From positions 992,001 through 1,056,000 of the forward strand of contig NZ_JACDXJ010000001.1 of NCBI RefSeq assembly GCF_013520865.1: a DNA stretch of 64,000 nt, written 5' to 3'. The notes below the pieces were generated by a model. The model was not told where the DNA came from and ran no database searches. It saw only the letters and a list, made by a program, of their open reading frames with translations. A program made the position numbers and the translations under genes. The stretch comes from Microvirga mediterraneensis. GTDB taxonomy: Bacteria > Pseudomonadota > Alphaproteobacteria > Rhizobiales > Beijerinckiaceae. Shown piece by piece: positions 15,020-31,291 of this stretch; positions within the stretch are counted from its first letter, which is position 1; every line of letters starts with the position of its first letter.

Positions 15020-16000
15020 ATGAAGACATGGCTCGCCGCGATAGGCCTTTCGCTTCTCGGCGCAGGGGCTGGATTCGCCTCCGCGCAGGCGCAGGGATCG
15101 GACTGGCCGCAGAAGCAGGTTACGATCGTCGTGCCCTTCGGCCCGGGCGGCACGACCGACCTCTTCGCCCGCCTCGTGGCCGAGCAGCTCCATGCGAAAT
15201 ACGGCAAGCCCTTCATCATCGAGAACCGTCCCGGCGCCGGCGGCAATATCGGCACGACGGCGGTCGCCAAGGCCGCGCCCGACGGCCACACCCTGCTCGT
15301 CGGCACGGTGAGCACGCACGCGATCAACCCGTTCCTCTACAAGAACCTGCCCCATGATGCCGAGAAGGACTTCGTGCCGATCACGGGCTTGGCCAAGCTT
15401 CCCAATCTTCTGGTGGTGAGCCCCAAGATTCCGGTGAAGACGTTTACGGAATTCGTCGACTACGCAAAGCAAAATCCCGGCAAGCTGAACTACGGCTCGT
15501 CCGGGGCCGGAACGTCGCAGCACCTCGCGGCCGAGCTGTTCCAGCTCAAGACCGGCGCCAAGATGACCCATGTGCCGTTCCGCTCGTCCCAGGACATCGT
15601 CAACGGGCTGATCGGCGGACATATCGATCTGGCCTTCGACAACATGACCATCGCCTGGCCTCAGGCGCAGGGCGGAACCGTGCGGGCGCTCGCCGTCACC
15701 AGCCCCGACCGCAGCCAGCAGGCGCCCGAGATCCCGACCGTCGCCGAGACGCTGACCGGGTTCGATGCGACCTCCTGGAACGGATTGTGGGCGCCGGCCG
15801 GCACGCCGCAGGCCATCGTCGATACGATCGCGGCCGATGTGAAGACCATTCTCGAGAAGCCCGAGATCCAGAAGAAGGCGGCCGAAATGGCCTCGGTCAC
15901 CGCGGCGATGACCCCGAAGCAGTTCGCCGAATACATCCAGAGCGAGCGGCAGAAATGGTCCGAGGTCGTCAAGACCGTCGGCATCCAGATCGGCCAGTGA
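15020..16000 (+). CDS. Tripartite tricarboxylate transport (Bug/TctC) substrate-binding protein
   Basis: Periplasmic binding protein of 326 residues: signal peptide with cleavage near ASAQA-QG (residue about 24), then the Bug-family core with VTIVVPFGPGGTTDLFAR, NRPGAGGNIGT and YGSSGAGTSQHLA. Such proteins bind carboxylates. There are no TctA/TctB membrane genes beside it, so it must share membrane partners encoded elsewhere or act as a sensor. Start at ATG 15020 with AGGGAGAG upstream. First gene of the plus-strand arm of the sugar-acid locus. Confidence 0.92.
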   Translation: MKTWLAAIGLSLLGAGAGFASAQAQGSDWPQKQVTIVVPFGPGGTTDLFARLVAEQLHAKYGKPFIIENRPGAGGNIGTTAVAKAAPDGHTLLVGTVSTHAINPFLYKNLPHDAEKDFVPITGLAKLPNLLVVSPKIPVKTFTEFVDYAKQNPGKLNYGSSGAGTSQHLAAELFQLKTGAKMTHVPFRSSQDIVNGLIGGHIDLAFDNMTIAWPQAQGGTVRALAVTSPDRSQQAPEIPTVAETLTGFDATSWNGLWAPAGTPQAIVDTIAADVKTILEKPEIQKKAAEMASVTAAMTPKQFAEYIQSERQKWSEVVKTVGIQIGQ

Positions 16001-16077
16001 GCGCCTACCCTTGAAGAATGCGGCCGGGCAGGCCCTGGCCGCTGCAGAACTGCCCTGAAACCAGCGAGACAATCTCC

Positions 16078-17016
16078 ATGCTGACGACCATCGACACCTC
16101 TCACCTCGCCCGTTCCGTTCTGGCGGTTCCGCCATTCGCCCTGACGGGCGATTTCGAGATCAACCGGGAGGCCAATGCGAAGCTGATCCGCCATCTCGAG
16201 GCCGGCGGCGTGTCGACCCTGCTCTATGGCGGCAACGCCAATGTCCATAACTGGCCGGTGTCGAAATTCGCCGCATGGCTCGACAGCCTCGAGGAAGCGG
16301 TGGCCGAGGATACGTGGCTGATCCCCTCGGTCGGGCCCGACTGGGGCAAGCTCGTCGACGAGGCGGCGATCCTGAAGTCGCGCCGCTATCCCGTCGCGAT
16401 GGCGCTGCCGATGATCGCCCCGCAGACCCCCGAGGGCGTGGTGCGTGGGCTGCAGGATTTCGTGGATCGCTCAGGCGTGCCGCTGATCGTCTACATCAAG
16501 ACCGATCAATACGTGCCCGCCGAGGCGATGGGGCGGCTCGTGGAGCAGGGCGCCGTCTTCGGCATCAAGTATGCGGTTCCGCGCGCCGACCTGACGCAGG
16601 ATTCCTATCTGCAGGAGCTGATCGACGCGGTCGGCGCCGAGCGCATCGTCAGCGGCTTCGGCGAGCCTCCGGCGCTGCCGCATCTCACGCATTTCAAGCT
16701 CGCCGGTTTCACCGCAGGCTGCGTCTGCATCGCGCCGCACCTATCCATGACTTTCCTCCATGCGCTGAAGCGCGGCGACGAGGCCGAGGCGCGGCGCCAG
16801 CTGGAGGTCTTCATGCCGCTCGAGGCCCTGCGCGAGCGCCACAACGCGATCCGGGTCCTTCACACCGCCGTGTCTCTCTCGGGCGTGGCCGATATGGGGC
16901 CGATCCTGCCGCTCCTCACCGAGGCCGATCCGGCAGTTCATGGCGACATCCGGGAGGCCGCCCGGGCGCTTCTCGCGGCCGAAATGACCGCTCGACAGAA
17001 GGCCGCGGCTGCGTAA
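16078..17016 (+). CDS. DapA-family aldolase/dehydratase for a 2-keto-3-deoxy sugar acid
   Basis: 312-residue class I TIM-barrel lyase. The Schiff-base Lys is in FGIKYAVPR (about residue 165), the conserved Tyr in IVYIKTDQYV, and the substrate loop is YGGNANVHNWP instead of the GTTGE of DapA, so it is not lysine biosynthesis. Members cleave 2-keto-3-deoxy acids to pyruvate plus an aldehyde, or dehydrate them. ATG at 16078 is the natural start; 20 upstream codons are open but not conserved-looking. Position between a carboxylate-binding protein and a hydroxyacid oxidase suggests cleavage of a keto-deoxy pentonate to pyruvate and glycolaldehyde, but dehydration to 2-oxoglutarate semialdehyde is not excluded. 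Confidence 0.85.
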   Translation: MLTTIDTSHLARSVLAVPPFALTGDFEINREANAKLIRHLEAGGVSTLLYGGNANVHNWPVSKFAAWLDSLEEAVAEDTWLIPSVGPDWGKLVDEAAILKSRRYPVAMALPMIAPQTPEGVVRGLQDFVDRSGVPLIVYIKTDQYVPAEAMGRLVEQGAVFGIKYAVPRADLTQDSYLQELIDAVGAERIVSGFGEPPALPHLTHFKLAGFTAGCVCIAPHLSMTFLHALKRGDEAEARRQLEVFMPLEALRERHNAIRVLHTAVSLSGVADMGPILPLLTEADPAVHGDIREAARALLAAEMTARQKAAAA

Positions 17017-17079
17017 TCTGGCGGGCATCATCGGTCGGCCGGCCCCGTGCCGGCAGCATGCAAGGCGTCTGTGATCTCT

Positions 17080-18537
17080 ATGCCGGAACTCCACTCCGAT
17101 CTCCTGGGCGCGCTCTCCGCGCGCCTGGGAGCCAAGCACGTCATCGCCGATCCCGCCGGGATGGAGAGCTATCTCGTCGAGGAGCGGAAGCTCTATCGCG
17201 GCACCGCCCTGGCGGTGGTCCGGCCCGGCAGCACGGAAGAAGTCGCCTTCGTGGTGCGGGAATGCGCCAGGGCGAAGGTCGCCGTGGTGCCGCAGGGGGG
17301 CAATACCGGGCTCGTCGGGGGAGGTGTGCCGCACACGGGCATCGTCCTGTCTCTGGCTAGGCTCGACCGCATCCGCGAGGTCAATCCCTTCAACGCCACC
17401 ATGATCGTCGAGGCCGGTTGCATCCTGAGGAATGTTCAGGATGCGGCGGAAAAGGTCGACTGCATCTTCCCGCTGTCGCTCGCCTCGGAAGGATCCTGCC
17501 GGATCGGCGGCAACATCTCGACCAATGCCGGCGGCGTGAACGTTCTGCGCTACGGCAACACCCGCGAACTCGTGCTCGGGCTCGAAGTCGTCCTCGCCGA
17601 CGGCCGGATCTGGAACGGGTTGAAGAGCCTGCGCAAGGACAATACCGGTTACGACCTGAAGAACCTCTTCATCGGTTCGGAAGGAACCCTCGGCATCGTC
17701 ACGGCCGCGGTGCTGAAGCTCTTTCCGAAACCGAAGACACGCGTGACGGCCTTCATCGGCTGCGCCTCGCCCCATGCCGCGCTCGACCTTTTCGAAGGTC
17801 TGCGCCAGACCATGGGCGACGAGCTCACGGCCTTCGAGTTCATGCCGCATTTCGCCCTGGATATCGTGCTCAGGCACGCGCCCGGCGCGGTTCGCCCCTT
17901 GAGCGGCGACCATGCCGCCTATGCGCTGATCGAAGTCGCGTCGCCGGATCCCGATCTCGATCTGCGCGAGCTTCTGGAGAAAGCCCTGGGTGCCGCCTTC
18001 GAGAACGGCACCGTCGAGGACGCGGCCATCGCCGCGAGTGAGGCTCAGAACGCGGCTCTCTGGCACCTGCGCGAAAGCCTCTCCGACGTGCAGGGTCTCG
18101 AAGGAGGCTCGATCAAGCACGACGTTTCCGTGCCGGTCTCCGATGTCGCCGATTTCATCGTCACGGCGAGCCGGGCCTGCGAGGAGGCGTTGCCCGGGAT
18201 CCGCGTCTGCGCCTTCGGCCATTTCGGGGACGGCAACATCCACTTCAACCTGACCCAGCCGGTCGACATGGAAAAGCCGCTCTTTCTGGCCCAATGGGAG
18301 CGCTTCAACCGGATCGTCCACGACATCGTCCACGCCATGAACGGATCGATTTCCGCCGAGCACGGGGTCGGCCTGATCAAGCGCGACGAGTTGGCACGCT
18401 ACAAGGATCCGGTGGCGCTCGACCTGATGAAGACCCTGAAACGGGCGCTCGATCCGCAGAACATCCTCAATCCCGGAAAGGTCGTCGCCCTGGAGGGCGA
18501 TCTTCCGCCGGCGCTGCCTATGGGGAAGAAGGGATGA
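17080..18537 (+). CDS. GlcD/D2HGDH-type FAD-linked 2-hydroxyacid oxidase
   Basis: 485 residues: PCMH FAD-binding domain (about 35-215; VVPQGGNTGLVGGG, GGNISTNAGG, GSEGTLGIVT) and the C-terminal FAD-oxidase domain with the metal-site motif FGHFGDGNIHFN and SAEHGVGLIK. The family oxidises D-2-hydroxyacids such as glycolate, D-lactate or D-2-hydroxyglutarate. In this locus glycolate (from glycolaldehyde) or the hydroxyacid product of the aldolase is a reasonable substrate; GlcE and GlcF partners are absent, which favours a stand-alone D-lactate/D-2-hydroxyglutarate type enzyme. ATG 17080 preferred over GTG 17047. Confidence 0.88.
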   Translation: MPELHSDLLGALSARLGAKHVIADPAGMESYLVEERKLYRGTALAVVRPGSTEEVAFVVRECARAKVAVVPQGGNTGLVGGGVPHTGIVLSLARLDRIREVNPFNATMIVEAGCILRNVQDAAEKVDCIFPLSLASEGSCRIGGNISTNAGGVNVLRYGNTRELVLGLEVVLADGRIWNGLKSLRKDNTGYDLKNLFIGSEGTLGIVTAAVLKLFPKPKTRVTAFIGCASPHAALDLFEGLRQTMGDELTAFEFMPHFALDIVLRHAPGAVRPLSGDHAAYALIEVASPDPDLDLRELLEKALGAAFENGTVEDAAIAASEAQNAALWHLRESLSDVQGLEGGSIKHDVSVPVSDVADFIVTASRACEEALPGIRVCAFGHFGDGNIHFNLTQPVDMEKPLFLAQWERFNRIVHDIVHAMNGSISAEHGVGLIKRDELARYKDPVALDLMKTLKRALDPQNILNPGKVVALEGDLPPALPMGKKG

Positions 18538-18832: not shown

Positions 18833-19474
18833 ATGAGCGTCCCCGCCGTCAGCAAGCAAGCCGTTCGAGATGCCGAAGCGACCAAGCGGCGGATCCTCGA
18901 TGCGGCGACGGCCGAGTTCGCAGGCCACGGCTATGGCGGGGCGCGGGTGGACCAGATCGCGGAAGCCGCCCGCACCAACAAGCGCATGCTCTATTATTAT
19001 TACGGGAGCAAGGAGGCGCTGTTTCTCGCAACCCTCGAAGCGGCCTATGACCATATCCGCGCCGCCGAGCGCGAGCTGCACCTGGAAGAGCTTTCGCCCC
19101 TGCAGGCGCTCGAGGAGCTCGTGCGGTTCACGTGGAACTATTTCGTCCAGTATCCCGAGTTCATGATGCTGCTCAACGCGGAGAACCAGCATCACGCCAA
19201 GCACCTGAAGAAATCCACCCGGGTGCACACCATGAACTCCCCGGTCATCGAGACGATCGGGGTCATCCTCAAGCGGGGCGAGAAGGCCAGGACCATCCGT
19301 CCCGGCATCGACCCGGTCCAGCTTTACGTCTCCATTGCCGGGCTCTGCTACTTCTACCTGTCGAACGTCTACACCCTGTCCGTGGCCTTCGGCCGCGAGC
19401 TTCTGTCCCCGCCGGCCATGAAGGAGCGCATCGACCACGTGGTCGATTTCGTCCTGGCGGGCGTGCGCGCCTGA
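18833..19474 (+). CDS. TetR-family transcriptional regulator
   Basis: 213 residues with an N-terminal TetR helix-turn-helix (about 15-65; RRILDAATAEFAGHGYGGAR, KRMLYYYYGSKEALF) and an all-helical ligand-binding domain containing an uncommon NAENQHHAKHLKKS stretch. It sits directly upstream of, and in the same direction as, the seven-gene importer/catabolic operon. A strong promoter and an imperfect palindrome lie between them, so it is the likely repressor of that operon. Ligand unknown. Confidence 0.9.
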   Translation: MSVPAVSKQAVRDAEATKRRILDAATAEFAGHGYGGARVDQIAEAARTNKRMLYYYYGSKEALFLATLEAAYDHIRAAERELHLEELSPLQALEELVRFTWNYFVQYPEFMMLLNAENQHHAKHLKKSTRVHTMNSPVIETIGVILKRGEKARTIRPGIDPVQLYVSIAGLCYFYLSNVYTLSVAFGRELLSPPAMKERIDHVVDFVLAGVRA

Positions 19475-19490: not shown

Positions 19491-19519
19491 TTGACATGTC
19501 CGACAACCGGGCATCTAAT
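19491..19519 (+). promoter_or_regulatory. Sigma-70-like promoter of the NMT1-importer operon
   Basis: TTGACA (19491-19496), a 17-base spacer and TCTAAT (19514-19519) match the consensus in 11 of 12 bases. It points at the permease gene starting at 19694, leaving a leader of about 165 bases that contains repeat hairpins. Confidence 0.65.
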
Positions 19520-19533
19520 TAACCAGGTAGTTA
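19520..19533. promoter_or_regulatory. Imperfect palindrome just after the -10 element
   Basis: TAACCAGGTAGTTA has 4-base inverted arms (TAAC/GTTA) and two further symmetric positions. It begins right behind the -10 box, where a TetR repressor would block initiation. It also resembles a CtrA box with one mismatch (TTAA-N7-GTTA), so the protein that reads it is uncertain. Confidence 0.4.
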
Positions 19534-19580
19534 CATAGAGCGGCTGAAGCCGCCTGCCCATGCCCTTTGGAAACGCCCTG

Positions 19581-19680
19581 GAGCATCGTGCGAAGAAGTG
19601 GGAACCGGTTCTTCGCGAAGAACGATGCTCCTCGAAGAAATAGAGCAAGCACTCTGATCCCGTCGGAATGCCTGCTCTAG
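19581..19680. repeat. Intergenic repeat of the GAGCATCG family (two hairpins)
   Basis: GAGCATCGT ... ACGATGCTC (19581-19630) forms a hairpin around GTGGGAACCGG, and AGAGCA ... TGCTCT (about 19643-19678) a second. The same core words recur at 27031, 41327 and 42254. It lies in the leader of the operon below. Confidence 0.7.
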
Positions 19681-19693
19681 AGGAAGACGCTGC

Positions 19694-20500
19694 ATGACGT
19701 CGAAGCTCGCGCGCGCCAGTCAAAACCTGCTGAATTCCGCCTGGATCAAGCCGTTCGGGCTTCTCGTCCTCACGGTCGTGCTCTGGGACCTCACGGTCCG
19801 GATCTTCGCGATCCCGGCCTATCTGGTCCCGCCGCCGAAGGACGTGGCCGTGGCCTTCTGGAACGAGGGCGGCATGCTGCTCCGGGAGGCCGTCCCGACC
19901 ACGACGGCCACGCTCGGCGGCTTCCTCCTGTCCGCCCTGTTCGGCATCCCGATCGCCATGCTCATCGCGGGGTCGCGAACGGTCGAATCTTACGTCTATC
20001 CGCTGCTCGTCTTCTCGCAGTCGATCCCCAAGGTCGCGGTAGCACCGCTCTTCGTGGTGTGGTTCGGCTTCGGCATGGCCCCGAAGGTGATCTCCGCGTT
20101 CCTGCTCGGGTTCTTCCCCGTGGTCGTCGCCGGCGTGCAGGGCTTCAAATCGCTCGATCCCGAAATGCGCGACCTCGTGCGCTCCATGAAGGCGTCGCGC
20201 CTGCAAGCCTTCACCATGGTCAACCTGCCGCACGCGCTGCCGGCGATCTTCTCCGGCCTGAAGGTCTCCGTCACGCTGGCCGTCGTCGGTGCTGTCGTGG
20301 GAGAATTCGTCGGCGCCAATTCGGGCATCGGCTTCGTGCTGCAGCGGTCCATCGGCAATTTCGAGCTGCCGACCATGTTCGCGGCCCTCGTCATCCTGGC
20401 GCTGATCAGCGTCATCCTCTTCTGGATCATCGATCTCGTCGAGCGTTTCACCGTGCCGTGGCACGCCAGCCAGCGGCACGACTTTGCAGCAACCGCCTAA
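19694..20500 (+). CDS. ABC transporter permease, nitrate/taurine/NMT1 type
   Basis: 268-residue inner-membrane protein with about six segments of the binding-protein-dependent permease domain (SsuC/TauC/ThiX-like); the cytoplasmic coupling loop lies around MRDLVRSMKASRLQAF. First gene of the operon, with GAGGAAG before ATG 19694. It would form the channel with the binding protein (20541) and ATPase (21545). Confidence 0.93.
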   Translation: MTSKLARASQNLLNSAWIKPFGLLVLTVVLWDLTVRIFAIPAYLVPPPKDVAVAFWNEGGMLLREAVPTTTATLGGFLLSALFGIPIAMLIAGSRTVESYVYPLLVFSQSIPKVAVAPLFVVWFGFGMAPKVISAFLLGFFPVVVAGVQGFKSLDPEMRDLVRSMKASRLQAFTMVNLPHALPAIFSGLKVSVTLAVVGAVVGEFVGANSGIGFVLQRSIGNFELPTMFAALVILALISVILFWIIDLVERFTVPWHASQRHDFAATA

Positions 20501-20540
20501 AACAAAAAGGCGGAGCCCATAACACCATCGGAGGAAGTCC

Positions 20541-21548
20541 ATGAAGAAACGTACGTTCCTGAAAGCTACCCTCTTTGCCGCCACCGCTCTCATGCCCTTC
20601 GTGTCGCTGCCGGCGCAGGCCGCCGACAAGGTCGTGCTGATGCTCAACTGGTATGTCTATGGCGAGCATGCGCCGTTCTACTACGGCAAGGAGAAGGGGC
20701 TTTACGCCGCCGAGGGAATCGATCTCGAAATCCAGGAGGGGCGCGGCTCGGCAGTCACCGTGCAGGCGGTGGCCGCGAAGACCGTCGACTTCGCCTATGC
20801 GGACGTTCCGACCATGATCCGCGCGGCGGTCAAGGGCGCGCCCGTCATGTCTCCCGGCGTGCTGCTGCAGAAGAACCCCATGTCCGTGATGGGCTTCTCC
20901 GAGAAGAACATCCGTAAGGCCGAGGACCTGCGCGGCAAGACGGTGGCGACGACACCGGGCGATTCCATGTCGCAGATCTGGCCGCTCTTCCTGAAGAAGG
21001 CTGGCCTCAAGGAGAGCGAGATGCGCATCGTGTCCGGTGATGCGCAGACGAAGCTCAATGCGGTGATCAACGGCCAGGCCGACGTTCTCCTCGGCTATGT
21101 CATGGACCAGAGCATGAAGATCAAGGACGCGACGGGCAAGAACGTCACGCCGGTCATGTTCGCGGATTACGGCGTCAACCTCGTGTCCTCCGGCATCATC
21201 GCGCACAAGGATACCCTGAAGGACAAGGCCGACCTCGTGCGCCGCTTCATGAGCGCCACCACCAAGGCGATCGAGGGCGCGGAGAAAGCCCCGACCGAGG
21301 CCACGCAGGCCGTGCTGAAGGCCCTGCCGAAGGCCGGAAAGCCCGATACGCTGCAGGAGGGCTTCGAGCTGACGATCCCGCTCTACCGCACGGAAGAGAC
21401 GAAGAATCAGCGCCCGTTCAACGTCACCGACGCCAACATGGCCGAGACGGTGAATCTCCTCATCGAATACGGCGGACTCGATCCGGCCGCGAAGGAGAAT
21501 CCCAAGGCGTTCTACACCCGCGACTTCCTGCCGAAGGCCACGCAGTGA
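20541..21548 (+). CDS. NMT1/THI5-like ABC substrate-binding protein
   Basis: 335 residues with a signal peptide (cleavage near LPAQA-AD, residue 28) and the NMT1 core: VLMLNWYVYGEHAPFYYGKE, GLYAAEGIDLEIQEGRGSA, FAYADVPTM. Relatives bind pyrimidine precursors of thiamine, riboflavin, sulfonates or aromatic compounds; the WY near the N-terminus is typical of the THI5 group. The genes downstream are sugar-type catabolic enzymes, so the ligand may be a polyol or sugar derivative rather than a vitamin precursor. Ligand unassigned. Confidence 0.92.
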   Translation: MKKRTFLKATLFAATALMPFVSLPAQAADKVVLMLNWYVYGEHAPFYYGKEKGLYAAEGIDLEIQEGRGSAVTVQAVAAKTVDFAYADVPTMIRAAVKGAPVMSPGVLLQKNPMSVMGFSEKNIRKAEDLRGKTVATTPGDSMSQIWPLFLKKAGLKESEMRIVSGDAQTKLNAVINGQADVLLGYVMDQSMKIKDATGKNVTPVMFADYGVNLVSSGIIAHKDTLKDKADLVRRFMSATTKAIEGAEKAPTEATQAVLKALPKAGKPDTLQEGFELTIPLYRTEETKNQRPFNVTDANMAETVNLLIEYGGLDPAAKENPKAFYTRDFLPKATQ

Positions 21549-22378
21549 GCAGGACCGCGCGCGCCATGGCACATCTTCGTGTCATACCAAAAAGCGAGGC
21601 GTCCGCGCCTCGCAACATGATCGAGATCCGCAACCTTGCGAAAACCTATCGCACCCGGGGCGGCGACGTTCCATCCCTGCGGCCGATCAACCTCGACATC
21701 ACCGACGGCGAGTTCGTCGCCGTGGTCGGGCCGTCGGGCTGCGGCAAGTCCACGCTTCTGAAGCTCGTGGCGGGCCTCATCCCGTCGAGCGAGGGCGAGG
21801 TCCAGATCGGCGGTGTCGCCGTCCGCGAGCCGCCGGACGACGTGGGCATCGTGTTCCAGAGCCCGGTGCTGCTGCCCTGGCGCTCGGTGCTGCGCAACGT
21901 GATGATGCCCGTGGAGGTGCGAAAGCTCGACCGGGAAACCCATCTCGCCCGCGCCCGCAAGCTCCTGTCGATGGCCGGGCTCGAGGACTTTCAGAACAAA
22001 TATCCCTGGCAGCTTTCCGGCGGCATGCAGCAGCGCACCGCCATCTGCCGGGCGCTGGTGCATGATCCGAAGATCGTGCTCATGGACGAGCCTTTCGGCG
22101 CGCTCGACGCCATGACGCGCGAGCGCATGAATCTCGAATTGCAGCGCATCCACCACGAGACCGGGAAGACGATCCTCCTGATCACCCACTCGATTCCCGA
22201 GGCGGTGTTTCTGGCGGATCGCGTGGTCGTCATGTCCGAGCGGCCGGGTGCGATTGCGGCGATCTACGACGTGACGCTGCCGCGGCCGCGCAACCTGGAG
22301 ATCATGGGGCACCCGACCTTCGTCGATCTCACGCAAAGGATCCGCGCTCATTTCTACGCCCGCGGTCACTTGGACTGA
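21545..22378 (+). CDS. ABC transporter ATPase, nitrate/taurine type
   Basis: 277 residues with Walker A GPSGCGKST, Q-loop, signature LSGGMQQRTAI and Walker B IVLMDEPFGALD. Start GTG at 21545 overlaps the binding-protein stop by 4 bases (GTGA); the domain itself begins near MIEIRNLAKTY (residue 25), so a later start is also possible. Energises the importer of this operon. Confidence 0.95.
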   Translation: MSRTARAMAHLRVIPKSEASAPRNMIEIRNLAKTYRTRGGDVPSLRPINLDITDGEFVAVVGPSGCGKSTLLKLVAGLIPSSEGEVQIGGVAVREPPDDVGIVFQSPVLLPWRSVLRNVMMPVEVRKLDRETHLARARKLLSMAGLEDFQNKYPWQLSGGMQQRTAICRALVHDPKIVLMDEPFGALDAMTRERMNLELQRIHHETGKTILLITHSIPEAVFLADRVVVMSERPGAIAAIYDVTLPRPRNLEIMGHPTFVDLTQRIRAHFYARGHLD

Positions 22379-22383
22379 AGACC

Positions 22384-23772
22384 ATGTCAGGCATCAGGCT
22401 TCGCATTCGTGACATCGAGATCTTCGAGCGCCCCATGCGGTTCGCACGGCCGTTCCGGTTCGGTCTCGTGACCGTCGACGAGGCGCCCCAGGCTTTCGTG
22501 CGGGTCGTGGTCGAGGTGGAAGGCACCGGAACCGCGACCGGCGTCACGGCCGAGATGATGATGCCGAAATGGTTCGACAAAAACCCGGCGAAGTCCCCGC
22601 AGGACACGATCGCAGACCTGAAGGCGAGCCTCGGTGAGGCTGCCCGCAACTATGCACAGGCTGAGGACTGGGACACGGCCTTCGGCCACCATGCAGGCGG
22701 TTTCGCGGCCCAGAAGATGTGGGCGGCCGACCACGGGCTTCCGGGACTCGTCGCCTCCTTCGGACCCGCGCTCGTCGACAAGGCGGTCGCCGATGCGCTC
22801 CTCAAGGCCCTGGGCCTCGACTTCGCCGAGGGTCTGCGTCGCAATGTCTTCGGCATCGACGCTCGTCTTACGACGGACCTCGCGGAGGAGCGTATCCGGT
22901 CCTTCCTGGCGGACGTCCGGCCGGTTGGCGATGTTCTTTTACGGCATACGGTCGGGCTGCTCGATTCCCTCGACGGCGCGGGCGGTCTCGAAGACGAGAT
23001 CCGGCTGGCGACGCTAAGGCTCTTCAAGATCAAGATCGGCGGCGACGTTGATGCGGATATCGCGCGCTTGGCGGCCATCCATAACCTCCTGTCGCGGCAC
23101 GTTCCCGACTACCGCGCCACCCTCGACGCCAATGAGCAGTACGATCCGCAGCGCCTGCGGGTTCTGCTTCAGGAAATGAACAGCGGCGCCTTGCGCGCCT
23201 TCCGCGATCATCTTCTCTACATCGAGCAGCCCTTCGACCGGGCAGGGACCTTCGCCGCCCCTTTGGGCGACCTCGCGGACGAGATCCCGTTCATCATCGA
23301 CGAGGCGGACGGCGATTACGATGCTTTCCCGCGCGCGGTGGAACTCGGCTATCGCGGCGTGTCCTCGAAGGCCTGCAAAGGGTTCTACAAATCCGTTCTG
23401 AACGCCGTCCGCGTATCGGTTTTGAATGAGACGCAGCCGGCGAAGTTCTTCGTCTCCGCCGAGGATCTCACCTGTCAGGCGGGGCTGGGGATCCAACAGG
23501 ATACGGCGCTCGTCGCGGCGCTCGGCCTGTCTCATGCCGAGCGCAACGGACATCACTACGTCGAGGGTTTCGGCCCGGCATCGGACGCGGAAGCGGCGCG
23601 CTTCTTAGCCGCGCATCCCGATCTCTACCGGAAGCAGGGCAAGCGGATCGGCCTTGCCTTCGAGCGAGGATCGCTCCCGACCGTTTCTCTTCTGTCCGCT
23701 CCGGGCTTCGCCAGCGGCGCCGAGCCCAACTGGGACAGTCTCGTTCCGCTCGCACAACACCATCTTTCATAG
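22384..23772 (+). CDS. Enolase-superfamily (mandelate racemase / muconate lactonising) enzyme
   Basis: 462 residues, longer than the usual 370-400. The barrel shows the metal and catalytic signatures in order: FKIKIGG (KxK), [25 protein letters not shown] and a late SSKACKG. The superfamily abstracts a proton alpha to a carboxylate (acid-sugar dehydration, racemisation, cycloisomerisation). The substrate cannot be named. It starts 5 bases after the ATPase gene and is followed 10 bases on by a Gfo/Idh/MocA enzyme, so import and catabolism are one transcription unit. Confidence 0.85.
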
Positions 23773-23782
23773 GGGATATATT

Positions 23783-24970
23783 ATGGCACAGCGCAGATTG
23801 GGCATCGTGATGCACGGCATCACCGGCCGCATGGGCATGAACCAGCACCTCATCCGTTCCGTCGCGGCGATCCGCGCCCAGGGCGGTGTCACGCTCTCGG
23901 ACGGGTCGAAGGTGCAGCTCGATCCCATCCTGGTCGGCCGCAACGCGGACAAGATCCAGGAGCTCGCCAAGACCTACGGCATCGACCGCTGGACGACCGA
24001 CCTGGATGCCGCCATCGCCGATCCGAAGGACGAGATCTTCTTCGACGCGGCCACGACCCAGATGCGCCCGACCCTGCTGGAGCAGGCGATCAATGCCGGC
24101 AAGCACATCTATTGCGAGAAGCCGATCTCCACGAACCTGCCGGAGGCCTTGAAGATCGTCCGCCTCGCCCGTGAGAAGGGCGTGAAGAACGGCACCGTGC
24201 AGGACAAGCTGTTCCTGCCGGGCCTGCAGAAGCTGAAGATGCTGCGCGATTCCGGCTTCTTCGGCCGCATGCTCTCCGTGCGCGGCGAGTTCGGCTATTG
24301 GGTGTTCGAGGGCGATTGGGGCCAGCCGGCGCAGCGTCCGTCCTGGAACTATCGTGCCGAGGACGGCGGCGGCATGATCCTCGACATGGTCTGCCACTGG
24401 CGCTACGTGCTCGACAATCTCTTCGGCGAGGTCCGTTCGGTCTCCTGCATCGGCTCGACGCATATTCCCGAGCGCGTGGACGAGAAGGGCAAGACCTATC
24501 AGGCGACAGCCGACGATTCGGCCTATGCCACCTTCATGCTCGATGGCGGCGTGATCGCCCACATCAATATGTCCTGGTGCACCCGCGTCTATCGCGACGA
24601 TCTCGTCACCTTCCACGTGGACGGCACGCACGGCTCGGCCGTCGCCGGCCTCACCGATTGCGTGATCCAGCCGCGTCAGGCCACGCCCCGCCCGGTCTGG
24701 AACCCGGACCAGAAGCAGACCATCGATTTCTACGACACCTGGCAGCCGGTTCCTGACAACACGGTCTACGACAACGGCTTCAAGACCCAATGGGAGATGT
24801 TCGTCCGCCACGTGGTCGAGGATGCACCCTACAAGTACACGCTGGTGGAAGGCGCCAAGGGCGTGCAGCTCGTGGAATGCGCGCTGGAAAGCTGGCGCGA
24901 GCGCCGCTGGGTCGACGTGCCGCCGCTGAACGTGGGCGCCGCGAAGGAGAAGCAGCATGAACCGGCCTGA
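23783..24970 (+). CDS. Gfo/Idh/MocA oxidoreductase
   Basis: 395-residue NAD(P)-dependent sugar/polyol dehydrogenase type. Rossmann start [15 protein letters not shown] is unusual in having an insertion before the dinucleotide turn; the family Lys-Pro motif is in YCEKPISTN (about residue 117), and DMVCHWRY supplies the catalytic-region His. ATG at 23783 follows the enolase gene by 10 bases; the frame is open further upstream but inside that gene. Its stop overlaps the DUF993 start by 14 bases. Confidence 0.9.
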
Positions 24971-26147
24971 GTCCATCAGCGCCCTGTCGATCCGCCTGCC
25001 GCAGACGGATCGCAGTCTGGAGACCTACAAGCTCTCCGCGCCGAAATCCTTCCCCGAGAAGGCAAACGGGCCGATGAACCGCATCGCGTTCTCGGCCGCC
25101 CATGTGGTGGCCGATCCGCTCGCCGATGCGGATCCGTGGCTGCAGGCCGCCATCGACTGGGACAAGACCATCGCCTATCGCGAGCGCCTGTGGGATCTCG
25201 GCCTCGGCGTGGCGGAAGCGATGGACACCGCGCAGCGCGGCATGGGCCTCGACTGGCCCACCTCCCTCGAACTGATCCGCCGCTCGGTTGGCGCCGCCAA
25301 GGCGCGCGGCGATGCCCTGGTGTTCTCCGGCGCCGGCACGGACCATCTCGCACCCGAGGCGGCGCGCAGCATCGACGACGTGATCCGTGCCTACGAGGAG
25401 CAGTTCGCCGCCATCGAGGCGGTCGGCGGACGCATCATCCTCATGGCCTCGCGGGCTCTCGCGCGCGTCGCCCAATCGCCGGACGATTACGTCAAGGTCT
25501 ACAACCGGATCCTCGGCCAGGCGAAGGAGCCCGTGATCATTCACTGGCTCGGCGACATGTTCGATCCGGCCCTTGCGGGCTATTGGGGCACGGCCGATCT
25601 CGATGCCGCCATGGACACGGCCGTGTCGATCATCAACGACAACGCGTCCAAGGTCGACGGCGTCAAGATCTCCCTCCTCGACAAGGACAAGGAGATCGCC
25701 ATGCGCCGTCGCCTCGACGGGCGCGTGCGGATGTATACGGGCGACGACTTCAACTATGCGGAGCTGATCGCCGGCGATGATCAGGGCTATTCGCATGCGC
25801 TGCTCGGCATCTTCGATGCCATCGCGCCCGCGGCTTCGTCCGCGCTCGTGAGTCTCGCGGCCGGTGATCTCGATGCGTTCCACGAGACCCTCGCGCCGAC
25901 AGTCCCGCTGTCGCGGCACATCTTCCGGGCGCCGACGCGGTTCTACAAGACCGGCGTGGTGTTCATGGCCTACCTCAACGGCCATCAGGACCATTTCACC
26001 ATGGTCGGCGGACAGGAGAGCGCGCGCTCGACCCTGCATCTCGCCGAACTCTTCCGTCTGGCGGACAAGGCCGGCCTGCTGCGGGATCCGGATCTCGCGG
26101 TGGAGCGCATGCGCTTCGTCCTCGCCACGCACGGCGTGGAGGCGTGA
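24957..26147 (+). CDS. DUF993 family protein (DapA-like TIM barrel of unknown function)
   Basis: 396 residues that I recognise as the DUF993 group, a remote relative of dihydrodipicolinate synthase. The barrel-like stretches [36 protein letters not shown] (a Lys at the position of the Schiff-base residue) and [10 protein letters not shown] support an aldolase-like mechanism. No biochemical role is known to me. Tightly linked to a Gfo/Idh/MocA enzyme (14-base overlap) and a sugar-isomerase-like TIM barrel (3-base gap). Confidence 0.85.
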
Positions 26148-26150
26148 CGC

Positions 26151-27017
26151 ATGCGTGACTTTTCCGGCGATCACCGCGCCCTGTCGATCAACACGGCGAC
26201 CGTGAGAAAGCAGGGCGATCTCGTGGCCATCACGGAGGCCTGCGCCCGGGCCGACATCAAGGCGATCTCGCCCTGGCGCGATCAGGTGGCGCATGTGGGT
26301 CTCAATCGGGCCGTGGCGGCCGTGAAGGATGCGGGGCTCGAACTCTCCGGCTATTGCCGCGGCGGCATGTTTCCGGCCGATGCGGCACGGATGCAGGAAG
26401 CCACCGACGATAATCGCCGCGCCGTGGACGAGGCGGTCGCCCTCGGCGCTCCCTGTCTCGTGCTCGTGGTCGGCGGCCTGCCGCAATATTCGCGGCCGGG
26501 CTGTCACGCCTCGAAGGACATCGATGCCGCCCGCGCTATGGTGGAGGACGGGATCGCGACCCTGCTCGAGTATTCCCGCCAGGCCGGCCTGCCGCTCGCC
26601 ATCGAGCCGCTGCATCCCATGTATGCGGCGGACCGCGCCTGCGTGAACACCATGCGCCAGGCGCTCGACATCTGCGACCGGGTCGATCCGGAGCGGACCG
26701 GCATGCTCGGCCTTGCGGTCGACGTCTATCACGTGTGGTGGGATCCGGAGCTGAAGGAGCAGATCCGGCGCACGGGACAGGACCGGCTGCTCGCCTATCA
26801 CGTCTGCGACTGGCTGGTGCCCACCACGGACCTGCTGCTCGATCGCGGCATGATGGGCGACGGCGTCATCGACCTGCGCGGCATCCGTGAGGCCGTCGAG
26901 GCGGTCGGCTTCGCGGGCTACTCGGAAGTCGAGATCTTCTCGGAAAACAATTGGTGGAAACGTCCGATGGAGGAGGTGCTCGCCACCTGCATCGAGCGTC
27001 ACCGCACGGTCGTCTGA
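26151..27017 (+). CDS. Sugar phosphate isomerase/epimerase-like TIM barrel
   Basis: 288 residues of the xylose isomerase-like / AP endonuclease 2 family, with metal-site candidates in PLAIEPLHPMY (Glu), LAVDVYHVWWD (Asp/His), YHVCDW and GYSEVEIFSE (Glu). Members isomerise, epimerise or dehydrate keto-sugars and inosose-type substrates. Last gene of the operon; followed by repeat hairpins at 27031-27143. Confidence 0.88.
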   Translation: MRDFSGDHRALSINTATVRKQGDLVAITEACARADIKAISPWRDQVAHVGLNRAVAAVKDAGLELSGYCRGGMFPADAARMQEATDDNRRAVDEAVALGAPCLVLVVGGLPQYSRPGCHASKDIDAARAMVEDGIATLLEYSRQAGLPLAIEPLHPMYAADRACVNTMRQALDICDRVDPERTGMLGLAVDVYHVWWDPELKEQIRRTGQDRLLAYHVCDWLVPTTDLLLDRGMMGDGVIDLRGIREAVEAVGFAGYSEVEIFSENNWWKRPMEEVLATCIERHRTVV

Positions 27018-27205: not shown

Positions 27206-28318
27206 TCACGCGGCGAGAACGGATCGCAGCAGATACGGCGCACCGGCTGCCTCCGCGATCTCCTGCACTTTCAGTTTCAATGTCTCGGGGATCGGGATGC
27301 CCGTTGCGAGACGCTCCTCTCGGGCCGCCCATTCCGGTTCGCCCGGTATCAAGACCGGCTCGTCCTCACGGATGGGCTTCGTGGCATGGAGCGTATCGAC
27401 GATCGCTTCCACGTCGGCCTGGAACTCATCGAACGGCCTGAAGGCCGCCGGGTTCAAGGCCATGAAGAAATGGCCGATATTGTCGGGATCGGACGGCTTC
27501 TGCGTCCGGTTCCTCACCGGCGAGAAGGATGCGCCGGACAGGGTGCCCGACAGGATCTGGGCGATCAGGCCGAGCCCGTAGCCCTTATGGCCTCCCATAT
27601 CGCTGCCGTCGCCCCCGATGGGAGTGAGGCCACCCTCGCGGCCCTCGAAAATCTGGCGAAAAGCCTGTCCTGAATCGGTGACCGGCTGCCCCTGGCCGTC
27701 GATCACCCACCCAGGGGGAAGCTCCTTGCCCTGGAGGGCATAGACCTTCACCTTGTTGGCCGCCACGACGCTGGTGGAAATGTCGACGCAGATGTCCGCA
27801 TGGGATCCCGCCGGCACCGCGACCGCGATCGGGTTCGTGCCGAGCACGCGTTCGACCCCGTTCGTCGGCACGACGGAGATGACGCGGGTCGTGGAAGAGA
27901 CGACGCCGATCAGCCCGCGTTGTGCCGCCATCGTGGCGTAGTAACCGGCGGCGCCGAAATGGTGGGAATTGAACACCGTCACGATGCCGACATCGTGCGC
28001 CAGCGCCTTCTCGATGGCGAGATCCATGCCCATCAGGGCGGCGGGATGGCCGAGGCCCGCTCCGCCGTCGATCAGGGCCGTGCTGGCACTCTGCCGGACG
28101 ATCCTGGGCTCGGCCCGAAGCCGCAGCTGACCGGCTGTCTGCATCTGGGCATATTGGGTCAGCATCGAGATGCCGTGCGAGTCGATGCCGCGCAGATCGG
28201 TCTCGACCATCACTTCGGCGGTCAGGCGCAGCTTGTCCTCGCCCATGCCCCAAGCGCGCAGGATCGCCTCGATCTGGGCGCGAATCACATCCGCCGAGAA
28301 ATTCTCGCTCGCGACCAT
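27206..28318 (-). CDS. Ldh-family (malate/L-lactate type) NAD(P)-dependent oxidoreductase
   Basis: 370 residues of the Ldh_2 family (YlbC/YbiC/DpkA group), which reduces or oxidises 2-keto and 2-hydroxy acids or cyclic imines. Seen: ETDLRGIDSHGISML with the catalytic-region Arg/His, NSHHFGAAGYYA, GTNPIAVAVP and GHKGYGLGL. Probably cytosolic. Second gene after the Gfo/Idh/MocA gene at 28397, with two hairpins between them. Confidence 0.9.
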   Translation of the reverse strand: MVASENFSADVIRAQIEAILRAWGMGEDKLRLTAEVMVETDLRGIDSHGISMLTQYAQMQTAGQLRLRAEPRIVRQSASTALIDGGAGLGHPAALMGMDLAIEKALAHDVGIVTVFNSHHFGAAGYYATMAAQRGLIGVVSSTTRVISVVPTNGVERVLGTNPIAVAVPAGSHADICVDISTSVVAANKVKVYALQGKELPPGWVIDGQGQPVTDSGQAFRQIFEGREGGLTPIGGDGSDMGGHKGYGLGLIAQILSGTLSGASFSPVRNRTQKPSDPDNIGHFFMALNPAAFRPFDEFQADVEAIVDTLHATKPIREDEPVLIPGEPEWAAREERLATGIPIPETLKLKVQEIAEAAGAPYLLRSVLAA

Positions 28319-28396: not shown

Positions 28397-29647
28397 TCAG
28401 GCCGCGATGGCCTGCGCCGGGTCGAGCAGCTTCGAGACGCTGACCAGCTGGCCCGTCTTCGCGCTCTGGAGCGCCGCGATGCCGCACAGGACCGACATGG
28501 CGCCGGCGCGCGAACCGGCGCGCTGGTTCAGCGGGTCCGGCGTATCCGGCTTGAAGAGCATGTCCTGCAGCTTCGGGTCGCCGCCGAAATGCCCGCCCGG
28601 CTCATGCGGGACCTTGATGGTCTCGGCGCCGCCGAAGTTCCGCACCAGCAGGATCTCGTCGTGCTCCGGCGTCTCCCAGGGCTGACGTTCGAACTGGCGC
28701 ATCTGGATGCGGCCCTTCGTTCCGTCGAAGGCGATGAAGTGGCCTTCGATCGGCATGTAGGTGTTCACCGAATAGGTGACCTGCACGCCCTTCCGGTAGC
28801 GGATCATGGCCGACATGGTGTCGGGGATGTCGATCTCCTCGCGGAATACGCAGGCGTCGCGCACATAGCCGTCCTCGCGCGAGGGATCCTCGTAGAGAGC
28901 CTCGAGCCAGGGATCCTGGCTGATGTCCATATAGTAGTCGCAATAGCTGGCATGCGGGCAGGTCTTGCAGCGCTCGCCGCGGAAGGGGCCGGCCTTGCCG
29001 TATTTGCGCAGGCTGGCGAATGCGGACACGTCCTCCGGGTCATCGTCCAGGTACCAGTTCATCAGGTCGAAATGGTGCGTGCTCTTGTGCACGAACAGGC
29101 TGCCCGAATTCTCCTCGATGGCGTGCCAGCGGCGGAAGTAGTCGGCCCCGTGCTTGTTGTCGAGGAACCAGTGGAAATCGATGGAGGTGACGTCGCCGAT
29201 CACGCCCGAAGTCAGGAGTTCCTTGATCTTACGAACGGTCGGGGCGTAGCGGTAATTGAAGGTCACGTCGACGCGCTTGCCCGTGCGCTTCTCGGCTTCG
29301 AGGATGCGGCGTACCTTCTCGGCCGTCGTGGTCATCGGCTTTTCGGTGATGACGTTCACGCCGGCTTCGAGCGCCCGCACGATCATCTCGTCGTGGTTCG
29401 AATCGCGTGTGCAGATGATGACCGTGTCCGGCTTGATGGCCGCGATCATCTCCTGGGCGTCGGCATAGATCGGGGCATCGATTCCCAGGAAGCTTCTGGC
29501 GCGCTCGGCGCGAAGCCTGTTGATGTCGCACAGGGCGACGATCTCAACGAAGTCGCTGTAACCCTTGACGACGTTGATCCCCCACATGCTCGTGCCGCGA
29601 TGGCCTGTGCCGATGAGGGCAATGCGTTTCCTGTTCGCGCGGTCCAT
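28397..29647 (-). CDS. Gfo/Idh/MocA oxidoreductase with a Cys-rich insertion
   Basis: 416 residues. Rossmann turn IALIGTGHRGTSMWG, family motif NVITEKPMTTT, and catalytic-region HKSTHHFDLMNWY. About residue 235 carries RCKTCPHASYCDYY (C-x2-C-x5-C) with a further Cys in VRDACVF about 35 residues later, a possible metal or Fe-S site seen in some members of this superfamily. I use ATG 29647 (GGAGAA upstream) rather than TTG at 29710. It is divergent from the ABC operon at 30011. Confidence 0.9.
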   Translation of the reverse strand: MDRANRKRIALIGTGHRGTSMWGINVVKGYSDFVEIVALCDINRLRAERARSFLGIDAPIYADAQEMIAAIKPDTVIICTRDSNHDEMIVRALEAGVNVITEKPMTTTAEKVRRILEAEKRTGKRVDVTFNYRYAPTVRKIKELLTSGVIGDVTSIDFHWFLDNKHGADYFRRWHAIEENSGSLFVHKSTHHFDLMNWYLDDDPEDVSAFASLRKYGKAGPFRGERCKTCPHASYCDYYMDISQDPWLEALYEDPSREDGYVRDACVFREEIDIPDTMSAMIRYRKGVQVTYSVNTYMPIEGHFIAFDGTKGRIQMRQFERQPWETPEHDEILLVRNFGGAETIKVPHEPGGHFGGDPKLQDMLFKPDTPDPLNQRAGSRAGAMSVLCGIAALQSAKTGQLVSVSKLLDPAQAIAA

Positions 29648-29811
29648 ACTCTTGGGTTCTCCTGCTGCTTCGCTCGTGGGCGTTCGCTGAGCGATTGATT
29701 TGTCAGACAAATATGAGCTTCATTTATTGGCAAACCAGAGGGGAGGGATCTTCTCTGTCTGATCTTTCTTAGGGAAGCTTCCGTAAAGGAGCTTAGATCG
29801 GCAAATTACAT

Positions 29812-29834
29812 CATACAACTGGTTGACATACAAC
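29812..29834. promoter_or_regulatory. Repeated CATACAAC motifs in a divergent control region
   Basis: CATACAAC occurs at 29812-29819 and again at 29827-29834, with TTGACA (29823-29828) overlapping the second copy. The same octamer is found before the dehydratase gene (13804-13811), and its first seven bases form an arm of the GntR-region palindrome (14958-14964). The 363-base gap between the divergent genes at 29647 and 30011 shows no other clear element. Confidence 0.4.
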
Positions 29835-30010
29835 CATTCTAAATTTTAGCTTCATGTCGGATGGCGACAAACGAAAAGCGCACGCGTAGCGTACGAGGCG
29901 GAGGGATCGAAGCCTCGGCGCGCCGCAAGCCAAAGAAAAGAACTGTCGCCAAGTAAGAGGCAACAAGGCCGGGCGCCCGCCAAGCGGCGCCCAAGAGGGA
30001 GATACGCCAC

Positions 30011-31291
30011 ATGACTCATGACCTTAACCGTAGGACTCTGTTGAAGGCGGCCCTCGGGTCTGCCGGCCTCAGCGCTCTGGGAAGCCTTCCGGCTTTCGCG
30101 CAGGATGCGCGCATTCGCCTGTACTGGTGGGGCTCGAAGGAGCGCGCCGACCGCACGCTGAAAGCGGTCGGGCTCTACCAGGAGCGGAACCCGGGCGTGA
30201 AGATCGACGGCGAGACCCTGGCCTGGGGCGATTACTGGCCCCGGCTCGCCACCCAGGCTGCCGGCCGCAACGCTCCCGACCTGATCCAGATGGATTATCG
30301 CTATGTCGCGGAATATGCCCGGCGCGGCGCCCTGATGCCGCTGGACGAGTTCATGGGAAAGTCGCTCACCATCGGCGATTTCGACAAGGCTTCCCTCGAC
30401 AGCTGCAAAGTCGACGGCAAGCTCTACGGCATCAATATCGGCAACAATTCGAACGCTTTGATCTACAACAAGGCCGCGTTCCAGAAGGCCGGCGTGCCCG
30501 AGCCGATCGACGTGAGCTGGGACAAGTTCTTCGAACTCGCCGCCGCCGTCACGAAGGCGCATAACGGCGAATACTTCGGGACGTCGGACGGAAGTTCCGA
30601 GGAGACAGCCTTTGAGAACTGGCTCCGCCAGCGCGGCAAGGCGCTCTACACGGAGGACGGCAAACTCGGCCTCACCGAACAGGACGCGACCGACTGGTTC
30701 GCCATGTGGGCCAAGGCGCGTGAGTCCAAGGCCTGCCCGCCGGCCGACCTGCAGGCGCTGGACAAGAACAACATCGAGACGAACCTGCTGACCCAGGGCC
30801 GCGCCGCTTGCGCGTTCAACCACTCGAACCAGTATGTCGGCTATCAAGTTCTCAACAAGAACCCGCTCGGCATCACCATGTACCCGCAGGGCGCGGGCCC
30901 GAACCCCGGCCACTACCTCAAGCCGTCGATGATGTGGAGCATTTATGCCCGCTCCAAGGTGGCCGAACAGGCGGTGAAGTTCGCCAACTTCACCGTGGAG
31001 GACGTGGACGGCGCGAAGGTTCTCGGCGTGGAGCGCGGCGTGCCCGCCTCGCCCAAGGTCCGTGACGCGGTATCGGCGGAACTCGACGACATGGGCAAGC
31101 TCGTCGTGGGCTTCATCGCTCACGTCACGCCCAAGGTCGGGCCGATCCCGCCCGCTCCGCCGAAGGGCGCCGGCGAGATCCAGACGATGCAGCGCCGGAT
31201 TGCCGAGCAGGTCAGCTTCGCGCGCCTGTCCCCGGCCGATGGCGGCAAGCAGTATGTCAGCGAAGCCCAGGCCATTCTGAGCCGCGCCTGA
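30011..31291 (+). CDS. Sugar ABC transporter substrate-binding protein (CUT1)
   Basis: 426-residue periplasmic binding protein. The N-terminus NRRTLLKAALGSAGLSAL has a twin-Arg pair with the R-R-x-L-L-K pattern, so export is probably by Tat, with cleavage near PAFA-QD (residue 31). Core features such as YWWGSKERADRTLKAV and YWPRLATQAAGRNAPDLIQ fit extracellular solute-binding family 1. First gene of a plus-strand operon with two permeases, a dehydrogenase and a lactonase. Ligand unknown; a uronic acid or oligosaccharide would suit the neighbours. Confidence 0.93.
   Translation: MTHDLNRRTLLKAALGSAGLSALGSLPAFAQDARIRLYWWGSKERADRTLKAVGLYQERNPGVKIDGETLAWGDYWPRLATQAAGRNAPDLIQMDYRYVAEYARRGALMPLDEFMGKSLTIGDFDKASLDSCKVDGKLYGINIGNNSNALIYNKAAFQKAGVPEPIDVSWDKFFELAAAVTKAHNGEYFGTSDGSSEETAFENWLRQRGKALYTEDGKLGLTEQDATDWFAMWAKARESKACPPADLQALDKNNIETNLLTQGRAACAFNHSNQYVGYQVLNKNPLGITMYPQGAGPNPGHYLKPSMMWSIYARSKVAEQAVKFANFTVEDVDGAKVLGVERGVPASPKVRDAVSAELDDMGKLVVGFIAHVTPKVGPIPPAPPKGAGEIQTMQRRIAEQVSFARLSPADGGKQYVSEAQAILSRA

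Follow-up and report, generated by a model that had tools for sequence, protein, structure and literature searches.

Seven plus-strand genes at 19,694-27,017 of a 64,000-nucleotide stretch of a Microvirga genome (M. mediterraneensis; the whole stretch is called the window below) appear to form a catabolic operon under TetR repression, with a sugar acid or a glycoside containing uronic acid as its substrate, a reading to which a probability of about one half is given. The set encodes an NMT1-type ATP-binding cassette (ABC) importer, an enolase-superfamily enzyme (ENO), a Gfo/Idh/MocA dehydrogenase (Gfo), a protein of the family DUF993 and an isomerase-like barrel of the AP_endonuc_2 family. Held more tentatively is the proposal that DUF993 represents a new branch of the dihydrodipicolinate synthase (DHDPS) superfamily, a Schiff-base lyase that would act on an in-chain ketone in an undescribed, non-phosphorylated uronide or sugar-acid route with a dedicated dehydrogenase and a metal-dependent isomerase. 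Regulated sugar-acid catabolic clusters are a known type; what is new here is one built round an enzyme family without assigned activity.

The family DUF993 extends over Proteobacteria and Actinobacteria, and at least 8,000 relatives of the protein are in the database, yet no paper on the family was found in searches for DUF993, PF06187, pfam06187 and IPR009334, whose coverage leaves out most subscription journals. Close relatives with solved structures exist for three of the four enzymes under generic names (4dnh for DUF993, 3oqb for Gfo, and 3ju2, 3qc0 and 7vpf for the barrel). A conserved, switchable gene set offers a direct way to learn the job of a protein whose fold is known: as importer, regulator and a short predicted order of steps come together in one co-regulated unit, one strain and three purified proteins should be enough to test what DUF993 does. 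The proposal, if true, would supply a route so far missing in rhizobia and their relatives for sugar acids of plant or soil origin.

A predicted operator at the operon promoter

The seven genes are closely packed behind a single promoter, TTGACA-17-TCTAAT, next to a TetR gene. This arrangement, claimed in a preliminary description of the same DNA, was confirmed, and the view of the genes as a single co-regulated catabolic unit is supported; the interpretation given there stands only in part, as detailed below. The best new evidence for one regulated unit, beyond that description, is a predicted operator. The 16-base palindrome TTAACCAGGTAGTTAC begins at the final base of the -10 box (19519), and the motif has a single match in the window (19519-19534) when up to one mismatch is allowed. 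Among five Microvirga relatives the outer TAAC...GTTA is fixed, and the inner bases vary within the symmetric pattern.

The symmetric consensus KTAACYNNNNRGTTAM (GTAACY-N4-RGTTAC) was counted in 59 other loci (L134-L192), the same loci on which it had been fitted and among which close relatives are not independent. The 26 loci with a TetR of the same protein cluster hold 20 exact intergenic sites, distributed over 13 loci (shuffles 0.0), and 44 sites in 23 loci at up to one mismatch (shuffles 0.5); their 423 kb of coding sequence contain no exact site and one at up to one mismatch. For the 33 loci without such a TetR gene, the corresponding figures are five exact sites in four loci (shuffles 0.1) and 12 sites in seven loci (shuffles 1.5). 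The Bradyrhizobium operator is a one-mismatch form, TTATCCAACGGGTTAA, and is worth about one observation. In the relatives the motif precedes operons with DUF993, genes for TetR and transporters of various types, and proteobacterial forms of DUF993 may often be switched through this shared predicted operator. Since the palindrome overlaps the -10 box and recurs at the operons and TetR genes of relatives, TetR is probably the switch of the seven-gene operon.

Five DUF993 clusters of the Sinorhizobium meliloti type were compared with the window (L135, from S. meliloti, L146, L150, L177 and L179). Apart from L146, each has one operator site between a divergent CUT1 operon and the TetR gene and a second before Gfo, which ties the CUT1 sugar transporter to the same switch; in L146 the two sites both fall in the interval from the CUT1 genes to Gfo, and no TetR gene was called there. 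Before the CUT1 operon of the window (29641-30060) no site was found at up to three mismatches. The window TetR is 48-51% identical to its counterparts in the same four clusters, and its best NCBIfam match is RutR, far under the cut-off (68 versus 368 bits). The palindrome bound by TetR proteins of the RutR type is somewhat similar.

The operon leader carries an inserted palindromic (REP-like) element, which is also found in one Microvirga relative (L002) and is absent from three others (L003, L005 and L006). At 42267 the core of the element recurs in a related form, with three mismatches, and three more genomic copies differ by one mismatch from a slightly shorter pattern.

DUF993 and its partner enzymes

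By their conserved residues, all four enzymes look catalytically intact. DUF993 matches PF06187 along the entire profile (641 bits against a cut-off of 24, positions 1-382 of 382); this is its only match at 1e-3, with none to PF00701. In the fold search, whose comparisons cover the families among the matches listed, the nearest solved chain is 4dnh (67% identical, Foldseek), followed by N-acetylneuraminate lyase (NAL) and DHDPS. A TIM barrel of the DHDPS/NAL type is thus predicted, which supports, on a weak model, the DapA-like fold named in the preliminary description.

That description had also staked its lyase assignment on a usable active-site lysine. Such a residue is present where expected: Lys237, invariant in 139 of 139 loci, lies within VDGVKIS on a predicted strand (233-239), and the span from it to the DD of TGDD is 26 residues, equal to that from Lys178 to SGED in the genome's own DapA (L196), whose lysine motif is IVGVKD. 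By motif and spacing, Lys237 would be the Schiff-base lysine found at the end of strand 6 in DHDPS and NAL; hhalign also aligns it to the DHDPS lysine, not significantly (E 0.098).

ENO keeps the residues of the muconate-lactonizing group of the enolase superfamily, that is, the KxK motif, three acidic metal ligands and the strand-6 lysine (K215, K217, D248, E281, D306 and K329, in 96 of 96 sequences). A single-sequence search of the PDB with ENO gave no match, and a profile search returned dipeptide epimerases and muconate cycloisomerases. The EKP lysine and the D-x3-H motif of Gfo (K113, D201 and H205) are kept in 112 of 112 sequences, and the E, D, H, E metal ligands of the barrel (E152, D191, H217 and E261) in 116, 116, 115 and 116 of 116, respectively. 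The equivalog cut-off for IolO (5-keto-L-gluconate epimerase) was not reached (25.2 versus 300 bits). We take the conserved residues of Gfo, the barrel, ENO and DUF993 to have the catalytic and metal-binding roles typical of their families.

Conservation of the gene set

Genes were called with a codon-usage script, and their proteins clustered, in 139 DUF993 loci. The exact seven-gene order occurs in 69 of the 80 closest loci, mostly from Bradyrhizobium, in seven of 22 phylum-sample loci (all of family f159, grouping with Bradyrhizobium in the tree), in one of 12 plasmid loci and in none of the 25 class-sample loci (24 genomes). It is rare outside Bradyrhizobium, Microvirga and close relatives. 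Within the class sample, Gfo lies directly upstream of DUF993 in 18 loci and the barrel directly downstream in 16, with both in 13, and ENO is found within 10.5 kb in 10; the lasting core is therefore Gfo-DUF993-barrel.

The importer type varies among NMT1-type ABC, TctABC, CUT1 and MFS systems, so the NMT1-type importer, at first taken as a fixed part of the pathway, is better described as exchangeable between loci. A TctABC-type (carboxylate) transporter takes its place in L138, L148, L157 and others, a CUT1 sugar ABC importer in the five S. meliloti-type clusters and an MFS protein in L141. In Microvirga zambiensis (L004), the operator is followed by a permease-like start stump and then by ENO-Gfo-DUF993-barrel. 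Replacement of NMT1 by TctC in this strain was considered and rejected: a TctC gene stands upstream of the DapA-like gene there as it does in the window, and with the stump kept, the ABC importer genes seem to have been lost.

Whole-genome profiles were drawn up for a class-wide sample of 289 genomes (Gfo at 1e-60, ENO at 1e-40), where DUF993 occurs in 25, Gfo in 26 and ENO in 21. DUF993 and Gfo occur together in 22 genomes, DUF993 alone in three, Gfo alone in four (in two of them at 40-46% identity) and neither in 260 (p 6e-26, a value that, like all co-occurrence p values here, is uncorrected for relatedness and ignores shared ancestry). The expectation that the genes co-occur elsewhere therefore holds for the Gfo-DUF993 pair, which is robust (22 genomes together, seven apart), and fails for the exact order of seven. 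ENO, earlier counted into one pathway, is a separable module, present in 17 of the 25 DUF993 genomes, absent from eight and found without DUF993 in four, with 260 genomes lacking both. A second Gfo/Idh/MocA protein of the window (Gfo2) accompanies DUF993 in three genomes, is missing from 22 with DUF993 and occurs once alone. Within the genus, DUF993 is found in 14 of 48 genomes, which marks it as an accessory trait. Mirror-tree correlations with DUF993 (Gfo 0.91, barrel 0.92 and ENO 0.93, versus ATPase 0.86 and TetR 0.88) were given no weight, being little higher than the values for the last two.

Three of the four ENO-only genomes (G066, G280 and G148) and one of the four Gfo-only genomes (again G148) were examined. 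In G066 and G280 (L209 and L210) ENO is joined by a second barrel, an NAD-dependent epimerase, an acetyltransferase and another DapA-like protein, which makes ENO a module of its own. This unit adjoins a divergent NMT1-type ABC importer and represents a second unstudied unit with the same ENO.

The surrounding cluster

As linked genes occur on both sides, the seven-gene set is the middle of a cluster of about 24 kb (Table 1). Its limits have accordingly been widened from those first drawn, since the neighbourhood includes a CUT1 sugar transporter, genes for a lactonase and a uronate dehydrogenase, and a further three of the Gfo/Idh/MocA family. Upstream, the DapA/KdgD-like and GlcD-like genes are kept in five of five Microvirga loci (L002-L006). 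The former encodes a protein with a lysine in VFGIKYAV, which falls far short of the KdgD equivalog cut-off (27.2 versus 373.95 bits), and the TctC-type protein may be a member of the pathway.

Beyond the core, eight genes are common to the window and at least three of the five S. meliloti-type clusters, at 48-80% identity: those for TetR, Gfo2, the CUT1 binding protein, two CUT1 permeases, Gfo3, Gfo57 and the MalK-type ATPase. The Microvirga proteins branch apart from those of the five clusters in the DUF993 tree, which implies that the two gene sets were joined, or kept joined, in two separate lineages. The Microvirga CUT1 operon also holds an SMP-30-type lactonase gene and a gene whose product resembles uronate dehydrogenases over residues 4-256 of 267 (E 3.6e-76) and is predicted to be one. 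The nearest solved chain to Gfo2 is DgpA (7xr9, E 1.4e-20), with glucuronide-3-dehydrogenase lower (8tdi, E 3.8e-16).

Table 1. Features of the DUF993 operon and its neighbourhood, in window coordinates
Feature	Position	Strand	Evidence
TctC-type solute-binding protein	15020-16000	+	PF03401, 244.5 bits
Divergent DapA/KdgD-like protein	16018-17016 (probable start 16078)	+	DHDPS, 29.1 bits
GlcD-like FAD-linked 2-hydroxyacid oxidase	17047-18537	+	glcD, 279.5 bits, under cut-off 567.9
TetR-family regulator	18833-19474	+	TetR_N and TetR_C_29
Promoter TTGACA-17-TCTAAT	19491-19519	+	Sequence; kept in five Microvirga loci
Palindromic operator TTAACCAGGTAGTTAC, predicted	19519-19534		16 bases; enriched between genes in relatives
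Inserted palindromic (REP-like) element, operon leader	19571-19690 (approximate limits)		Between promoter and first gene
ABC permease	19694-20500	+	BPD_transp_1
NMT1/THI5-type solute-binding protein	20541-21548	+	PF09084, 157.3 bits (cut-off 20.5)
ABC ATPase	21545-22378 (start 21545 or 21617)	+	ABC_tran
Enolase-superfamily enzyme, muconate-lactonizing type (ENO)	22384-23772	+	Catalytic residues, fold matches
Gfo/Idh/MocA dehydrogenase (Gfo)	23783-24970	+	Solved relative 3oqb, E 3.5e-209
DUF993 (PF06187) DapA-like barrel, putative Schiff-base lyase, Lys237	24957-26147	+	641 bits; 4dnh
AP_endonuc_2 (xylose-isomerase-like) barrel	26151-27017	+	118 bits; relatives 3ju2, 3qc0, 7vpf
Ldh_2-family 2-hydroxyacid dehydrogenase	27206-28318	-	368 bits; in 5/5 Microvirga loci L002-L006
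Second Gfo/Idh/MocA (Gfo2)	28397-29710	-	59-64% to a gene inside the five S. meliloti-type DUF993 operons
CUT1-type sugar-binding protein	30011-31291	+	SBP_bac_8, 111 bits; 51-55% to 4/5 S. meliloti-type clusters
Two CUT1 permeases	31462-32319, 32312-33172	+	76-77% (four clusters), 71-80% (five clusters)
Third Gfo/Idh/MocA (Gfo3)	33211-34215	+	60-64% to 3/5 S. meliloti-type clusters
SMP-30/gluconolactonase-like lactonase	34215-35093	+	SGL, 242.5 bits
Uronate dehydrogenase-like protein	35219-36022	+	3rft, E 1.2e-70; 6mfh, E 3.6e-76
Fourth Gfo/Idh/MocA (Gfo57)	36095-37195	-	61-64% to 5/5 S. meliloti-type clusters
MalK-type ATPase	37503-38558	+	ABC_tran and OB_MalK; 51-52% to 4/5 S. meliloti-type clusters

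Proposed pathway and alternatives

The compound would be taken up through the NMT1-type ABC importer or, if it is a glycoside, through the CUT1 importer next to it, and would then lift TetR repression. The Mg-dependent ENO may act earlier than the other enzymes, through a proton shift beside the carboxylate (epimerisation, lactone opening or dehydration). Gfo would use NAD to oxidise a secondary alcohol to a ketone, which the metal-dependent barrel would epimerise or move, and DUF993 would bind this ketone as a Schiff base on Lys237 and split the neighbouring C-C bond by a retro-aldol reaction, giving two small oxygenated pieces. In Microvirga, one piece could be oxidised by the products of the Ldh_2 and GlcD-like genes; in other hosts, one could lead to glycerate, to be phosphorylated by a nearby glycerate kinase. 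The best guess for the substrate class is a uronide or other sugar acid; it rests on the lactonase and the predicted uronate dehydrogenase, on the TctC-type transporters and on the kinship of Gfo2 to DgpA and glucuronide-3-dehydrogenase.

Several results weigh against this reading. The clearest comes from G148, which has TetR, TctABC, ENO, Gfo, the barrel and an exact operator in one locus (L204) and lacks DUF993 throughout its genome even at E 10; the module can thus do without DUF993. Over the stretches fetched for the five S. meliloti-type clusters, no relatives of the uronate dehydrogenase or the lactonase were found, and the uronide interpretation therefore rests mainly on Microvirga. Glycerate kinase, aldehyde dehydrogenase and lactonase were counted in 9, 11 and 5 of the 139 loci, figures that miss members falling into other protein clusters. 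The operator motif is not enriched genome-wide, with two exact sites versus five for a reversed control and 45 versus 163 when one mismatch is allowed; its evidence is thus position and conservation, not number. The second exact genomic site (C1:2132562), between SerA-like and O-antigen-ligase-like genes, was treated as chance. Further, the predicted structure of DUF993 is poor (pLDDT 61.3), and the protein lacks two motifs of its superfamily. The strand-5 tyrosine motif of DapA is replaced by HWLG.MFDP, with H196, W197 and D203 invariant (the genome's own DapA has YNIP at 150), and the GTTGE-type carboxylate-binding motif is absent, a different segment standing opposite it in the hhalign alignment (E 0.098). 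As both are replaced, pyruvate is an unlikely partner, and DUF993 is, from its residues, likely a class I lyase acting on a non-pyruvate ketone.

The alternative that survives best leaves the rest of the pathway unchanged and makes DUF993 a Schiff-base dehydratase, decarboxylase or deaminase, for which KdgD and HypD provide precedents in the DHDPS superfamily. It is rather unlikely, as several lineages have a glycerate kinase and aldehyde dehydrogenases close to DUF993, which suits C-C cleavage to C3 pieces; glycerate kinase is annotated near DUF993 in six of the 12 plasmid loci (L139, L140, L141, L143, L144 and L145). A cyclitol pathway, in which Gfo would form an inosose-like ketone, the barrel would resemble IolE or IolI, and DUF993 would open or split the ring, is unlikely. 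It draws on the best PDB match of Gfo after 3oqb, a scyllo-inositol dehydrogenase with L-glucose dehydrogenase activity (E 1.7e-17), on the inositol 2-dehydrogenase model as the best NCBIfam match, below cut-off, of three of the four Gfo proteins, and on the match of the barrel to IolI (E 4.7e-6). However, the scores lie far under equivalog cut-offs (77.6 versus 355 bits), and three features favour an acid: the Mg-carboxylate chemistry of the enolase superfamily, the uronate dehydrogenase and transporters of the TctC type.

Import of a vitamin precursor, sulfonate or aromatic acid, as by many NMT1-type systems, with the enzymes acting on that compound, would agree with the family of the binding protein and its weak SsuA similarity, but is very improbable: the aliphatic sulfonate (SsuA) subfamily cut-off is not reached (62.7 versus 163.5 bits), CUT1 or TctABC importers accompany the same enzymes in relatives, and family searches of the seven genes gave no monooxygenase, thiamin or aromatic-ring enzyme. 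That general sugar enzymes have merely gathered here by chance, with no single pathway, is suggested by the varying transporter and the lack of the exact order in the class sample, but is hardly credible given the order kept among the closest loci, the Gfo-DUF993 co-occurrence and the shared operator motif.

Relation to known systems

The solved protein 4dnh is SMc04132, a DUF993 member from S. meliloti 1021 whose structure was determined without assigned function, and 3ju2, a relative of the barrel, is named SMc04130 in the PDB list. A results table of the PhaR study (PMC12542648) gives SMc04132, SMc04133 (putative oxidoreductase) and SMc04135 (amino acid or peptide ABC binding protein), in that part of the paper without function. 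The S. meliloti 1021 locus probably shares the same core, and the annotation of SMc04135 suggests that its transporter differs from that of the window. Passages of two further papers name locus tags of the S. meliloti cluster and nothing more (PMC11387232), and mention a 'dihydrodipicolinate synthase family protein' on pSymB that could not be matched (PMC12904279). Around the DUF993 accession names, only SMc04138 and SMc04139 turned up. Searches for 3JU2, 3OQB, 3QC0 and 7VPF gave nothing relevant, 4DNH was not among the matches listed for S. meliloti and DHDPS, retro-aldol with glycerate kinase gave no paper, and glucuronide-3-dehydrogenase none relevant by title.

DUF993 differs from the DHDPS/NAL superfamily (PF00701) in the replaced tyrosine and GTTGE motifs and in being about 100 residues longer. 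The oxidative uronate pathway proceeds from uronate dehydrogenase through a lactone isomerase or lactonase to KdgD. In the window, some 20 kb hold a lactonase, an enolase-superfamily enzyme, a uronate dehydrogenase-like protein and a KdgD-like protein, but the last is far below the KdgD cut-off, and neither DUF993 nor Gfo nor an isomerase-like barrel belongs, to our knowledge, to the known route. The 3-keto-glycoside pathways (DgpA and relatives, levoglucosan dehydrogenase) likewise combine several Gfo proteins with a barrel, and DgpA is nearest to Gfo2; the window proteins are all under the equivalog cut-offs, and we know of no DUF993 in these pathways. Myo-inositol catabolism (iolG, iolE and iolI) shares the joint presence of the Gfo and AP_endonuc_2 families, with weak scores, and family searches of the seven genes found no iolB, iolC, iolD or iolJ member.

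The sugar cluster of pAO1 in Paenarthrobacter nicotinovorans places Gfo, DUF993, aldehyde dehydrogenase and glycerate kinase next to one another, but has no ENO or barrel in the fetched stretch. Xylose oxidation has reportedly been proposed for this region. The literature search on pAO1 and xylose gave nothing on the DUF993 gene among the matches listed.

Other contexts of DUF993 and ENO

A second, CoA-linked context of DUF993 occurs in L140, L142 and L145, together with CoA-transferase, acyl-CoA dehydrogenase and a ketoacyl-type reductase, and in L145 also with ETF genes. The operator motif is also found before the CoA-transferase and acyl-CoA dehydrogenase genes in L142 and L145. In L144, L188, L189 and L191, and in part in L190 and L192, DUF993 is accompanied by two GMC oxidoreductases, a Dabb protein, LacI and glycerate kinase. 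Further subfamilies are suggested by the long branches of some DUF993 proteins in the tree (L139, L140, L141, L169 and L170). Finally, pRL10 of Rhizobium johnstonii 3841 (L133) carries a 44.1% identical relative of ENO, with DUF993 absent from the fetched stretch; its operon also encodes a peptide-type ABC importer, 5-deoxyglucuronate isomerase, a glycosyl hydrolase, a TIM-barrel protein and a hydroxyacid dehydrogenase.

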